From an uncultured Dysosmobacter sp. (GTDB taxonomy: Bacteria > Bacillota > Clostridia > Oscillospirales > Oscillospiraceae), in assembly GCF_947631165.1 (NCBI RefSeq), contig NZ_CANRKH010000001.1, positions 1-64,000 on the forward strand: 64,000 nucleotides of DNA. The letters run 5' to 3'. How positions within the stretch are numbered: position 1 is the first letter of the stretch; every line of letters starts with the position of its first letter. Below are positions 5,119 through 51,851 of the stretch, in pieces. The position numbers and the translations under genes are program-made. The notes under the pieces are model-generated. The model was not told where the DNA came from. It saw only the letters and a list, made by a program, of their open reading frames with translations, and ran no database searches.

Positions 5119-5165
5119 TGGAAAAGCAAGACAGCACACGCGCAAAAGCGCCCGCGCTTCTCTAC

Positions 5166-5320
5166 TCTGTCCTTTTACCTGAGAGATTCAGCGGCCAGGC
5201 CGCCTTGCACCTTCGGTACTCGTCATTGAGCTTCTCCAGAGCCACATCCGTCTTTAGTCCCCACCCGGCCACTCCGGGTGCCTGAGAGTTTTACTCCTTC
5301 GGCAGGCTTTCGCCATTTCC
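5166..5320 (-). promoter_or_regulatory. Tandem glycine riboswitch (gcvT motif) 1
   Basis: Two glycine aptamers in series on the minus strand. The first contains GGCGAAAGCCTGCCGAAGG and ends AAAACTCTCAGGC. The second contains GAGTACCGAAGGTGCAAGG and ends CTGAATCTCTCAGG. These are the conserved blocks of the gcvT-type glycine riboswitch. It sits between a promoter and a terminator hairpin ahead of the AGCS symporter. Whether glycine turns the gene on or off cannot be decided by eye. Confidence 0.95.
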
Positions 5321-6982: not shown

Positions 6983-7031
6983 GGACAAATCAGCAGCCTC
7001 CTCCGGCGGCCGGACCGCCAGCGGAACACAT

Positions 7032-7180
7032 CTCTGTCCTTTTACCTGAGAGATTCAGCGGCCAGACCGCCTTGCACCTTCGGTACTCAAAATGAGCTTC
7101 TCCAGAGCCACATCCATCCTTAGTCCCCGCCCGTCTCCGGGCGCCTGAGAGTTTTACTCCTTCGGCAGGCTTTCGCCATT
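7032..7180 (-). promoter_or_regulatory. Tandem glycine riboswitch (gcvT motif) 2
   Basis: It has the same architecture as riboswitch 1 and is nearly identical in both aptamers, including GGCGAAAGCCTGCCGAAGG, AAAACTCTCAGGC, the ACCGAAGGTGCAAGGCGG block and CTGAATCTCTCAGG. It precedes the frameshifted AGCS gene. The leader is far more similar between the two units than the proteins are. Confidence 0.95.
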
Positions 7181-32023: not shown

Positions 32024-32587
32024 ATGAACCGAACAGAAGCCCTGCTGGCCGACACGCTGGGCCAGCTATTGGAAGAAAAGCCCCTGAACAAGATCACCGT
32101 CAAGGAGCTGGTGGAGCGCTGCGGTGTGAACCGCAACACCTTCTACTACCACTTTCAGGACATCCCCAGCCTGCTGGGCCAGATCGTGAAGGAGCGGGCC
32201 GACGAGCTGATCCGGGACCACGCCCGGTCCGAATCCCTGGAGGACTGCATCCGGCTGGTGATCCAATACTGCTGCTCCTACAAAAAAGCCATTCTGCACA
32301 TCTACCGCTCCGTCCAGCGGGAGAGCTTTCTGTCCGCGCTGGACCGGATCGCGCTGTACACCGTGACGGAGTACGTGGACTACGCCGCCGCGGGGCTGGA
32401 CCTCCGGCCCGAGGACAAGACGCTGCTGATCCGGTACTATAAGTGCGTCCTGATCGGAGGCAGCCTGGACTGGCTGGACAGCGGGATGCGCTACGATCTG
32501 CTGGCTGACGCCGCCCGTCTCTGCGCCCTGTTTGAAGGCTCCGCCGAACGGGCCTTTCAGAATGCCGCCCTGCTGGGACGAGCATGA
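32024..32587 (+). CDS. TetR/AcrR family regulator
   Basis: 187-residue repressor-type regulator. The N-terminal helix-turn-helix (residues 10-57) contains ITVKELVERCGVNRNTFYYHF, the TetR pattern with the terminal FYYHF, followed by an all-helical ligand domain of the TetR C-terminal type seen in DhaS-like proteins. The ATG follows GGGGGAG. Divergent from the secreted-protein/MMPL operon with a 95-nt gap, which it very likely controls along with itself. Confidence 0.9.
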   Translation: MNRTEALLADTLGQLLEEKPLNKITVKELVERCGVNRNTFYYHFQDIPSLLGQIVKERADELIRDHARSESLEDCIRLVIQYCCSYKKAILHIYRSVQRESFLSALDRIALYTVTEYVDYAAAGLDLRPEDKTLLIRYYKCVLIGGSLDWLDSGMRYDLLADAARLCALFEGSAERAFQNAALLGRA

Positions 32588-32979: not shown

Positions 32980-33008
32980 TTGACATTTTCTGTGGATTTT
33001 GTTATGAT
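32980..33008 (+). promoter_or_regulatory. Consensus promoter of the 25-residue peptide mRNA
   Basis: TTGACA, 17-bp spacer, TATGAT; among the strongest promoters in the window. The transcription start is expected near 33015, giving a leader of about 78 nt. Confidence 0.88.
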
Positions 33009-33066
33009 AAAAATGCCCCGCGAGGGGCCGGAAAGGGCATAGTCATTACGGTTGGCGGTTTGGCCA

Positions 33067-33087
33067 CACCACCCCAGAGGGGAGGTG
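33067..33087 (+). promoter_or_regulatory. Hairpin that hides the peptide's ribosome site
   Basis: CACC-A-CCCC pairs with GGGG-A-GGTG around an AGA loop, with a single A-A mismatch. The 3' arm is the Shine-Dalgarno sequence itself, so the site would be closed until the leader is refolded or processed, as seen in many type I toxin mRNAs. Confidence 0.7.
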
Positions 33088-33092
33088 AAGCC

Positions 33093-33170
33093 ATGCGTAT
33101 TACGTTACATATCGGGACCTTCACAGTCACGATCATCGTAAAAAGCAGAAACCGCCACTCTGGCAAGTGA
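33093..33170 (+). CDS. 25-residue peptide, candidate type I toxin
   Basis: ATG at 33093, 5 nt after GGGGAGGTG. The peptide has a short hydrophobic beta-like core (ITLHIGTFTVTIIV) and a basic tail (KSRNRHSGK). The tail codons form the left arm of a hairpin (33147-33178) that acts as terminator for an RNA coming from the opposite strand. Consensus promoters face each other at 32980 and 33275. Strong promoter, sequestered ribosome site, tiny ORF and overlapping antisense RNA match the type I toxin-antitoxin layout (as in fst/par or txpA/ratA). The peptide is not a recognised toxin and is short for a membrane span, so toxicity is inference. Confidence 0.6.
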   Translation: MRITLHIGTFTVTIIVKSRNRHSGK

Positions 33171-33241
33171 CGGTTTCTTGGGTTTATTACCTAACAAATC
33201 CTCATCGTCAGGGCTGAACCGCTGATCGGCTGGCCCTTTCT
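33138..33241 (-). ncRNA. Candidate antisense RNA (antitoxin) to the peptide mRNA
   Basis: It is expected to start near 33241, downstream of a minus-strand consensus promoter. It runs about 100 nt and ends at the hairpin AGAAACCGTCACT/AGTGGCGGTTTCT followed by GCTTTTTAC. It contains no ORF of note. Its 3' part is fully complementary to the last 30 or so nt of the peptide ORF and to the mRNA 3' end. Confidence 0.58.
33147..33178 (-). terminator. Terminator hairpin of the antisense RNA
   Basis: Arms 33147-33159 and 33166-33178 pair at 12 of 13 positions. On the minus strand it is followed by CTTTTT. On the plus strand it covers the end of the peptide ORF. Confidence 0.75.
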
Positions 33242-33247
33242 GTTTTT
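33211..33247 (+). terminator. Terminator of the peptide mRNA
   Basis: GGGC...AACCG and CGG...GCCC arms followed by TTTCTGTTTTT. A second hairpin, CCGCC/GGCGG (33282-33294), with a nine-T run backs it up. Confidence 0.65.
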
Positions 33248-33275
33248 ATGATACCACAATCCAGCGTTTTGTCAA
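33248..33275 (-). promoter_or_regulatory. Consensus promoter of the antisense RNA
   Basis: Minus strand TTGACA, 16-bp spacer, TATCAT. It faces the peptide promoter at a distance of about 240 nt. Confidence 0.82.
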
Positions 33276-33279
33276 GGGG

Positions 33280-33305
33280 GACCGCCGGGGGCGGTCTTTT
33301 TTTTT
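33280..33305 (+). terminator. Strong T-run terminator
   Basis: GACCGCC and GGCGGTC arms around GGG, then nine T. It insulates the peptide locus from the SLH gene on the other strand. Confidence 0.85.
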
Positions 33306-33397: not shown

Positions 33398-36300
33398 TCA
33401 GGCAATAATCAGGGTGCTGTAATCACCGCAGGTCAGCTTGTACTGGTTGCCAGTGGCCAGCGCGCCGATCTCCAGCTCGCCAGTCGTAGCATCCTTATCA
33501 ACAGTGATCTTATAGGTGTTCAGCTCCACGATCTCGCCGCCGTTGACCTGAGACAGTGTCACAGTGTAAGCAGTATCCTTCGCAGCAGCCTCAGTCAGAG
33601 TGACAGTCAGCTTCTTGTCAGCATACTCGATCTTATCCAGATCGCCGCTGGAAACCACGGGCTTGGTGGTGCCAGTCTCGACCTCGGTATCGCTGATGAT
33701 AACGACCCACTCAGCAACGCCGTTGGAATTCAGGATGGCCACGATGCGGCCGCCGAACTCCAGCTCCTTGGTGTCGGTGAAGGGATCATCCAGAGCGGCG
33801 ACGGCAGCGGACACGGAATCATACTCCTCCTCGTCCCAATCGCCGTTGGTCTCCTGAATCACAACAGCCTTGGCGTCCTTGGTGAAGGTCAGGCCCTGGT
33901 CGTCATCGCTGGTGTACATGGTGCGGCCCTGCAGATAGATGTAGTTGCTGGTTGCGTTCATCACTTCGGGCGTAGCCTCTTCGGGAGCAACAGCCGTCAG
34001 ACGGGTGTTCAGGAAGTCGCACTTGCCGTCCTCATAGGTGCAGCCATCGTGATACTTGGGAACAGTCTCACCCTTCTTGTTGGTCGTCGTCTCGTTGTCG
34101 TGGCCAATGTCGTAGATGCGCTCGTCATCAATCTTTTCGGAGTTATCCGTGTAGATATCCTTGGCGTCCACGTCGTCAATGGCAACCACATAGTCGCCGT
34201 CGAAGCGCAGCTCCTGCACGTGGTTCTTGTCCAGATCCAGGATGGTGTCGGAGAATTCGCTCTTGACAGTCAGGGTCTTGACCTCGCCGTCCAGGATGGC
34301 CTTGAACTCCCAGTAATAAACGCCGTCGATGCGGGCCTCGCTCTTGGCGCCGGACAGAACGTAAGCGTAGTTGGCAACAGCGCCGTTGGCGTCGCCCAGG
34401 ATGATGGAGGCGATGATGTAGTTGTCGCTGTCGAACAGGGTGTAGATGCTGTGGGCAATGCCCTTCTGATCCTTGGTGGTCATCTCGATGTCCACATCCT
34501 GGACGCCGGTGTAAACGCCAGTGACCTCAGTGATGGCATCGAGGTCACCATTTTTGGAGGTGCTCACGTCATCAGCGTCCACGGTGATGAACACGGAGGC
34601 GTCCTCACCATAGGCGCGGCCACCCTCTTCATGTGTGACAGTGCCCTCAGGGGTAGTACCAGTATGATCGACCGTGGTGCCGTCCAGACGGACATTGGAG
34701 CAGTTGATAACGGCCTTGTAATCCTTGGTGCCGTCATCGTTGGTGGTTTCCTCGGCACCCTTGATGTCCTTGAGGTCGCTGGCGATCATGCGGGTAGCGG
34801 GCTTCAGGGTGTACACGCCGTCGTCCACGGTGTAGGTATACCAGCGGTTCAGCTGACGGTTGCCGTCGGTGTTGTCCGCCTTGATGCAGCCCACAGTGTT
34901 AGAGGTCCACAGGTCGAACAGCTCGTTGCCGGACTGGCCATCGTCCTTAACGCCGTCCAGCTTGTCGATGTTCTTGTTGGTGTCCTGCACGTTGACCTCG
35001 ATGACCTTCATGGTGCCGTCGGTGAAGATGGCAGCGGCGTCAGCGGTCTTGATGGACAGGTTGCTCTTGTTCATGTCGTAGCCGGTGATGAAGACATAGT
35101 TCTTCACGCCGTCGAACAGGTCCACGCCGATGAAGTAGCCGTACTGATCCAGGAACACGTTATAGGTCATGTCGGTCAGGCGGGAGTCGTTGTACTGGTC
35201 CAGAACATTGTTGAAGTCATAATATGCCTTCTCGTTGTTCTTGTACTCGGTGCCGCCGGTGGTCAGCTTGGTCAGCTTGCCCTCGGCCCTATCGTCCTCG
35301 TTCTTCTGGCTGAACTTAGTAACGGTGGAATCAGACAGGATCTCCACGTCGAACAGCTCCACGACTTCCAGCTTCGTGCTGTTCTTCTCGGACATGTTGA
35401 CCAGATAGTACTCGTCCTTCTCCACGTTCTCGATGGCGGGCACGTCCACCAGATCCACGTCCTTACTGGTGCCGTTGGCGCTGGTCTCGAAGACGCGCAG
35501 GGCGACGCTCTCCTTCTTCTCATTGTAAGAAGAGGTAGCCTTGGCCAGATAGGTGTTGATGGAGACGATGGTGATGATCTCGTCGTCGGTGTCCAGATAG
35601 ATTTCGGTCAGAACACCGTTGCCGGAGCCTTCCAGATCGCTCTCGTTCTTGCGGACCAGCAGGTCCTTGGTGATGTCCTTGTTCTCAGCGCCGTCGATCC
35701 AGCACTCCAGATCGTTGTCGCGGATGGTGGCGGACTTCAGCAGATCATACACGTCGCGGCCGGTAACGCCGGAGGTGTAGGACTCGACCAGCTTATCCTT
35801 GTCCACATAGGTGCCCAGCTCGGCCTTGTTGTAGGTCCAGGTGTGGGCGGGACGCATAAAGTCGTCGGTGTCGTCCAGCTTCTTCAGCTTGGTGAAGTAC
35901 TGCTCGGCGAACTGGATGTAGTCATCTTCCTTGATGTTCTCGATCTTGGTGGCGGAGTTGTTCCAGCGCTGGGCCTTGGCGATGGTGCTGCCCACGTTGA
36001 CCCGCTCGCCGTTGATGACGGTGCTGACAACGGTCTCATACTCGACCAGGTCGGCCTGCAGGGTGTTGAAGGCATACAGGCAGGCCTCTTCACGGGTCAC
36101 GGCCTTAACGCCGTTGAACTCGCTCTCCAGACCGGCGGTCAGGCCGATGTTGATGGCCTTCTTGGCCACGTTGATGGACCAGTTGGGGCCGGTGTACTGC
36201 TCGGTGGTGGCGTCATAGCCCAGGGCGCCCAGCAGCATCTTCATGAAAGCATAGCTGGTCAGGGTGTTGCCGGGACGGAAGGTGCCGTCGGCATAACCGC

Positions 36301-43608: not shown

Positions 43609-43633
43609 GTAAATAACGGCATACAAATCAAGA

Positions 43634-43703
43634 GGACTCATATAGTTTCGCTGATATGGCGCGAAAGTTTCTACGGAGCCGCCAAAGGCTCTGCTATGAG
43701 TGT
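43634..43703 (+). promoter_or_regulatory. Guanine-class (purine) riboswitch
   Basis: P1 ACTCATA/TATGAGT, P2 TCGC/GCGA with loop ATATGGC, J2/3 AAGTTTCTAC, P3 GGAGCC/GGCTCT with loop GCCAAA, and J3/1 GCTAT. The pyrimidine that sets specificity is C, so guanine or hypoxanthine is expected. J3/1 is one base shorter than the usual GACTAT. Guanine deaminase downstream fits. Confidence 0.86.
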
Positions 43704-43752
43704 CTGGCCGACGGGGGACCCCTGTTCGGACAGGCGCTCCTTTTCTTTTGTG
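43701..43752 (+). terminator. Expression-platform terminator of the purine riboswitch
   Basis: TGTC..CCGA-C-GGGG pairs with CCCC..TCGG-ACA, followed by TCCTTTTCTTTTG. Its 5' arm abuts P1, as required for switching. Confidence 0.7.
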
Positions 43753-51708: not shown

Positions 51709-51731
51709 TGCACTTGAACCGCATGACAATC

Positions 51732-51835
51732 GAACACAGGGGCGCTGGGAGCTGATTCCTGGCTGAGATGCAGAGGCGGCGCCGCCTCCGGTCCCTTGAA
51801 CCTGATCCGGGTAATGCCGGCGTAGGAAGTGAGCA
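51732..51835 (+). promoter_or_regulatory. TPP riboswitch (THI element)
   Basis: Conserved blocks ACAGGGGCGC, GGCTGAGATGCAG, CCCTTGAACCTGATCC and GGTAATGCCGGCGTAGG are all present in order. It controls the thiamine transporter gene through the terminator at 51852. Confidence 0.97.
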
Positions 51836-51851
51836 CGTCGCTCGTTTTTCC

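Follow-up and report, generated by a model that had tools for sequence, protein, structure and literature searches.

A probable chromosomal type I toxin-antitoxin locus of an uncultured Dysosmobacter and the multicopy family with which it shares an RNA scaffold

The stretch of 64,000 nucleotides analysed here (the window), from an uncultured Dysosmobacter sp., very probably contains a chromosomal type I toxin-antitoxin locus that is a member of a multicopy family built on a shared RNA scaffold. At the level of sequence, this reading draws on coding selection, promoters, terminator covariation, complementarity between the leader and the 3′ end of the putative mRNA, and a scaffold shared among peptide genes. 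A sequence-only reading had proposed a type I system at this site, and the ORF, promoters and terminator support it as regards the layout, though not the biology. In build and evolution the locus, as judged from its relatives, is a type I system, and we infer the transcripts, the toxicity of the peptide, the action of the antitoxin and of an RNase, and the target.

Layout of the locus and selection on its ORF

The locus is intergenic, with a regulator-like ORF, whose end is at 32587, on one side and a large ORF on the minus strand, whose end is at 33398, on the other. Two promoters face each other across it, a sense promoter on the plus strand (TTGACA-17-TATGAT, 32980..33008) and an antisense promoter on the minus strand (TTGACA-16-TATCAT, 33248..33275). 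Each matches 11 of the 12 consensus positions, and five promoter-like sites are found in the surrounding 2.5 kb against a mean of 1.0 (sd 0.9) in shuffled sequence, which upholds the earlier description of two facing promoters. Following the sense promoter on the plus strand are a leader segment (33029..33053), a predicted hairpin that encloses the Shine-Dalgarno sequence (33061..33093), a 25-codon ORF (33093..33170, including the stop codon) whose product, MRITLHIGTFTVTIIVKSRNRHSGK, defines the peptides we call class A, and a hairpin with a YUNR loop followed by a T-rich stretch (33211..33236), which we propose as the sense terminator. This last hairpin does not figure in the sequence-only reading, and a simple terminator scan missed it because the scan pattern allows only shorter inner loops; on the minus strand, the complementary sequence forms the 5′ hairpin of a predicted antisense RNA of about 105 nt (33138..33242, minus strand, approximate ends), which ends at a terminator hairpin built from the last codons of the ORF (33147..33178). 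Elsewhere in the window, Rfam matches mark two separate glycine riboswitch aptamers (5157-5249 and 7024-7115), a purine riboswitch (43618-43716) and a TPP riboswitch (51728-51845).

Comparison of relatives indicates that the ORF is a real gene kept by selection. Specifically, 112 loci with a 25-codon-type ORF (106 of them distinct) give a pN/pS of 0.10 over codons 2-17 and of 0.05 over codons 11-17, values in which pN is biased down because the loci were picked by peptide similarity; the other two frames of the same loci give 2.9 and 3.4. Free of this selection bias are only the silent changes and the pattern at third codon positions, where entropy is 1.15-1.16 bits versus 0.04-0.29 bits at the other positions. 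Codons 18-25 differ (pN/pS 0.61, with fewer silent changes), as is expected from the hairpin that overlaps them. The peptide of an Agathobaculum massiliense locus (L049) is identical to that of the window, with seven silent and no replacement differences between the two ORFs by manual count and with different flanks.

These data bear on the possibility that the locus is a mobile non-coding repeat, or an element that terminates transcription in both directions, and contains the ORF by accident. The family is multicopy, patchy in its distribution and rich in strong inverted repeats, as such an element would be. The codon pattern largely refutes this explanation and led us to reject an incidental ORF, the identical peptide with its seven silent differences speaks against it, and peptides of other classes on the same scaffold (see below) also have intact frames and Shine-Dalgarno sequences; we regard it as very improbable.

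The antisense unit and the predicted mRNA fold

The antisense promoter is conserved in the family. Among the 112 class A loci with enough flanking sequence, 108 have a minus-strand promoter matching at least 10 of 12 consensus positions (81 are perfect), compared with 31 of 1120 mononucleotide shuffles, and 107 of these promoters lie 63-103 nt past the stop codon; four of the 112 loci have no antisense promoter. The sense promoter is weaker across the family, reaching at least 10 of 12 positions in 64 of 112 loci versus 16 of 1120 shuffles. The sequence-only reading had looked to relatives in which the peptide frame is kept by synonymous change and the promoters are conserved, and both are found, the frame in the 112 loci above and the minus promoter in 108 of 112.

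In the window the stem of the antisense terminator comprises 14 base pairs (33178-33147) followed by GCTTTTT, and the predicted RNA folds with -39.3 kcal/mol (z -4.2). An RNA of about 105 nt that stops at this stem agrees with the minus RNA of about 100 nt, ending in a hairpin of the last codons, that had been described from the letters alone. Within the terminator, 45 cells have changed on both sides, where shuffles give 11.5 and none of 500 does as well; a second measure of covariation, further pair types, does not exceed shuffles (15 versus 14.2; 201 of 500). One pair of this kind is 16:23; of 58 sequences, 39 have T-A there and 19 have C-G. It couples residues 23 and 25 of the peptide, which read S..K in 71 of 115 cases, P..R in 37, S..Q in five and otherwise in two. 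The terminator of the antitoxin thus in part writes the tail of the peptide. Conservation of promoter and terminator thus points to an antisense RNA gene that overlaps the toxin gene and whose transcript is predicted.

The mRNA, for its part, is predicted to be highly structured. Its fold in the window has -103.8 kcal/mol (z -6.5), with none of 200 shuffles as good, and the Shine-Dalgarno hairpin alone has -19.0 kcal/mol (z -3.5), with one of 200 shuffles as good, which bears out the earlier claim that the ribosome site is enclosed in a hairpin. In this hairpin 33067-33070 pairs with 33084-33087 and 33072-33075 with 33079-33082, and 33061-33064 and 33090-33093 form an extension. The same fold contains 24 base pairs that join the leader (33029-33053) to the 3′ end (33217-33242), an interaction that is new here.

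This pairing is locus-specific. Leaders of 111 loci pair with their own 3′ region at a mean of -48.3 kcal/mol, compared with -37.8 kcal/mol for the 3′ regions of other loci and -28.4 kcal/mol for shuffled leaders, and the own 3′ region beats the median swap in 106 of the 111. When similar leaders are thinned, leaving 54 of the 111 loci, the own and permuted values are -46.9 and -36.2 kcal/mol (z -18.7; 0 of 5000 permutations). The exceptions include L027 and one copy in the window's own genome (C19, L002), neither of which has a proper leader match; the C19 copy has neither a leader nor a Shine-Dalgarno hairpin resembling those of other copies. In two further peptide classes described below, pairing above the median swap is seen in only nine of 14 class B and 10 of 18 class C loci. 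A YUNR motif is present in the 3′ loop of 92 of 109 loci versus 793 of 2180 shuffled loops (36%). Taken together, the fold prediction and the family permutation test support an mRNA fold that would hide the ribosome site.

Several features of this predicted arrangement are reminiscent of known type I systems. In bsrG/bsrE-type systems, as excerpts of the literature on them describe, the antisense RNA overlaps the 3′ end of the toxin mRNA by about 114-123 nt and leads to decay by RNase III, and bsrG and bsrE make contact through YUNR loops; a 3′ overlap is predicted here too, and a YUNR loop is common in this family. The aapA/IsoA systems of Helicobacter, according to portions of PMC6733600, share with the present locus a long-distance interaction between the 5′ and 3′ ends of the mRNA, hairpins that hide the Shine-Dalgarno sequence, an overlapping antisense RNA and several chromosomal copies, but there the long-distance helix itself masks the Shine-Dalgarno sequence, whereas that of the present locus has a hairpin of its own. 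The par/Fst system of pAD1, as set out in portions of PMC7472228, likewise has convergent promoters, an mRNA of about 230 nt and a self-sequestering leader; par uses one bidirectional terminator and direct repeats, however, while the present locus has two hairpins and an inverted repeat. We reject a par-like bidirectional terminator for the locus on account of its two separate hairpins.

The class A peptide and known families

Class A peptides are predicted to be cationic, amphipathic beta-hairpins with a basic tail. Hydrophobic residues alternate on either side of G8-x9, and the strand moment of the class is 1.74 versus 0.74 (sd 0.08) with residues shuffled; we limit the argument from moments to class A, since the beta moment of class C is fairly high as well (0.70) and in class D the alpha moment (0.62) exceeds the beta moment (0.58). 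AlphaFold2, given the peptide with five upstream residues and 26 close sequences, places two strands at peptide residues 1-7 and 10-16, with a mean pLDDT of 80.6 (93 over the middle block), a pTM of 0.35 and a range of 72.9-80.6 over five models. Given the shortness of the peptide, we treat this model as a lead, not as a structure. The best 19-residue hydropathy mean over 79 class A peptides is 0.71, compared with 2.11 for class B and 2.17 for class C, so that no membrane span is seen in class A; the sequence-only reading was right that the hydrophobic core falls short of a span, and a short core fits the predicted beta-hairpin. On the hydropathy and the AlphaFold2 model we reject a helical membrane toxin for class A.

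The peptide of the window matches no Pfam or NCBIfam profile at E up to 10, the Hol_Tox profile (PF16935) included, in line with the earlier remark that it falls outside known toxin families. Type I toxins of Clostridioides difficile, as described in parts of PMC6563280, have 34-59 residues, a transmembrane segment and a lysine-rich tail; those loci resemble the present family in being multicopy, in belonging to Clostridia and in their type I layout, where the antitoxin is an antisense RNA. TxpA/BsrG-like toxins, in excerpts of the literature on them, typically have a transmembrane domain, whereas class A peptides have 25-27 residues, a predicted beta-hairpin and no span. We found no sequence relation of class A to TxpA/BsrG-like toxins and no transmembrane segment with a charged tail of their kind, nor does the peptide of the window show an Fst signature or the transmembrane helix, conserved Trp and charged tail of Fst/Ldr toxins.

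Other searches gave weak matches or none. No Rfam 15 family reaches its gathering score within the locus, and sub-threshold matches fall mostly on the neighbouring terminator. Against PHROGs, the 14 peptides of set A2 weakly match two families of unknown function, phrog_16397 (two of 14, best E 0.008) and phrog_4193 (one of 14, E 0.0033). A PDB profile search returned one chain, at E 0.87, which we take as chance, and a weak match to YrzI (E 0.14) was set aside, a search of the window's own genome with that family giving only an unrelated match at E 1.05. The peptide strings had no match in the literature searched, T1TAdb, Fozo 2010 and Sberro 2019 being outside its scope.

One antisense scaffold, several peptides

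Class A loci are patchily distributed. The window's genome has three class A copies, and tandem copies occur in the family. Relatives are found at E<=0.01 in 25 of 86 genomes of the genus and, at E<=1e-4, in 11 of 295 genomes of the order and five of 398 of the phylum, the window's own genome being included in each count. A scan of GTDB gave 292 pattern matches, of which 253 stretches encode a relative; we kept the best 80 of these, and titles among the relatives include Oscillospiraceae, Lachnospiraceae, Agathobaculum, Clostridium porci and Oscillibacter valericigenes, among others. The 148 fetched loci yielded, by a peptide pattern, 121 distinct units and 76 distinct peptides, with units missed by the pattern outside later counts. 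One annotated record, of Vescimonas fastidiosa, lists no gene at the locus in a gene table that is incomplete, and matches in plasmids were confined to three places in one record.

A scan of viral contigs returned 20 loci from 46 matches, and on one of these contigs (L139) the locus follows family matches to head-tail adaptor, head closure, tail completion, tail terminator and major tail proteins (415-2742). Both observations favour the idea that a locus of type I build serves mainly a phage- or prophage-related role, in maintenance or exclusion, instead of chromosomal addiction. Most fetched copies, however, lie on contigs of ordinary genomes, and we hold this role to be possible but the less probable one. 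A site directly behind head-tail and major tail genes is in itself odd for a toxin-antitoxin pair; L140 carries ORFs similar to those of L139. Searches of GenBank phages gave no match.

The antisense half of the locus recurs with other peptides. We built an RNA model, R1, from 58 class A antisense halves and nothing else, and it matches in at least 47 of the 86 genus genomes at E<=0.1. We inspected 117 R1 loci, partly top matches and mainly loci without a class A peptide match, for which reason class A is under-represented among them. By class patterns drawn up after the loci had been viewed, they comprise 24 of class A, 23 of class B (MVTYSELFAYSLVIIGICGLFIQVHKKK-like), 43 of class C (MWRKRLYMVLRFLVCLAFWAYILTIKAC-like), three of class D (MSFHGTLHVWILGREFVITLGVKTGNRHPAR-like) and 24 without a recognised peptide ('none'); one locus counted as class A (L274) has a frameshifted end, and one counted as 'none' (L263) is class A with one substitution. 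The sequence-only reading had held that homologous loci keeping the hairpins without the peptide frame would count against it. Silent change keeps the frame in the 112 class A loci, and that part of the reading stood; the search with RNA alone does find scaffolds without a class A peptide, yet 93 of the 117 carry a short peptide of class A to D. In all 93 a minus promoter matches 10 or more of the 12 consensus positions, a result that is partly built in because R1 includes the promoter region. The distance from start codon to R1 start is 51-57 nt in class A, 69 nt in class D and 76-90 nt in classes B and C.

Two of the other classes have builds of their own, one resembling Hol-Tox below the cut-off and one basic with a core like a membrane span. 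Class B, and not the peptide of the window, resembles Hol_Tox PF16935: a match at E<=1 is seen for four of its 13 members (best E 0.0094), and two scored members fall below the curated cut-off. Three class B copies lie in the window's own genome (two at C79, one at C6). No convincing Pfam family match was found for 16 class C peptides, and class C (L183, L200, L202 and others) is a second large unannotated family on the shared scaffold.

Several scaffolds seem to have lost their peptide. A strong minus promoter is kept by 19 of the 24 'none' loci, while four of the 112 class A loci are without one, the two sets having been chosen differently; if the locus is a toxin-antitoxin pair, the ORF would be expected to go first and the promoter to stay, as is seen. 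At C79:3445-3567 (L279) and C6:72262-72385 (L280) of the window's own genome and at L223, antitoxin-only units come in pairs or immediately follow a complete class B unit; they have the look of tandem copies from which the toxin ORF has gone. In two genomes, at L163:1501-1620 (-) and L164:1501-1622 (+), a near-perfect antisense half (98 bits each) remains and the toxin ORF is swapped for the same unrelated sequence, and in L259, L257 and L218 a class A ORF is interrupted or cut with the antisense half retained.

The same RNA layout could also belong to a micropeptide that does no harm, acts in regulation or signalling and is controlled by the antisense RNA. Class A peptides, having neither a membrane span nor a recognised family, would suit such a role, and the neighbours of single copies mostly resemble ordinary intergenic sites (one locus). 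We nevertheless think it unlikely, since the scaffold carries at least two other peptide builds, one of them Hol-Tox-like, copies occur in tandem and on phage contigs, and 'none' loci mostly keep the antisense promoter, as expected if loss of the antitoxin is the costly one.

On the type I reading that we prefer, a plus-strand RNA (about 33015-33245) would encode the 25-residue predicted amphipathic beta-hairpin with its basic tail, and the full-length mRNA would be kept silent by pairing of its leader with its 3′ end and by the local hairpin that closes the Shine-Dalgarno sequence. An antisense RNA of about 100 nt, made from the strong facing promoter, would cover the 3′ UTR and the final codons of the ORF. 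Because it stops short of the Shine-Dalgarno sequence, it would probably act through a contact between loops, after which the mRNA would be cleaved as a double strand or would refold. Were the antisense RNA lost, the peptide would be made and the cell harmed, most likely at its membrane.

We lean, by a narrow measure, towards a broader proposal: a modular type I family, present in gut Clostridia and in phages of theirs, that uses one antisense scaffold for several unrelated toxin peptides, one of them a cationic beta-hairpin of 25-27 residues that is unlike membrane-helix toxins and has C-terminal residues dictated by the terminator of its antitoxin. If this is true, the antisense half of a type I system would be a reusable platform on which the toxin is exchangeable, a beta-hairpin toxin would join a class known for membrane helices, and the family, whose loci are found in abundant gut Clostridia, would show cleanly how an overlapping RNA can shape the tail of a protein.
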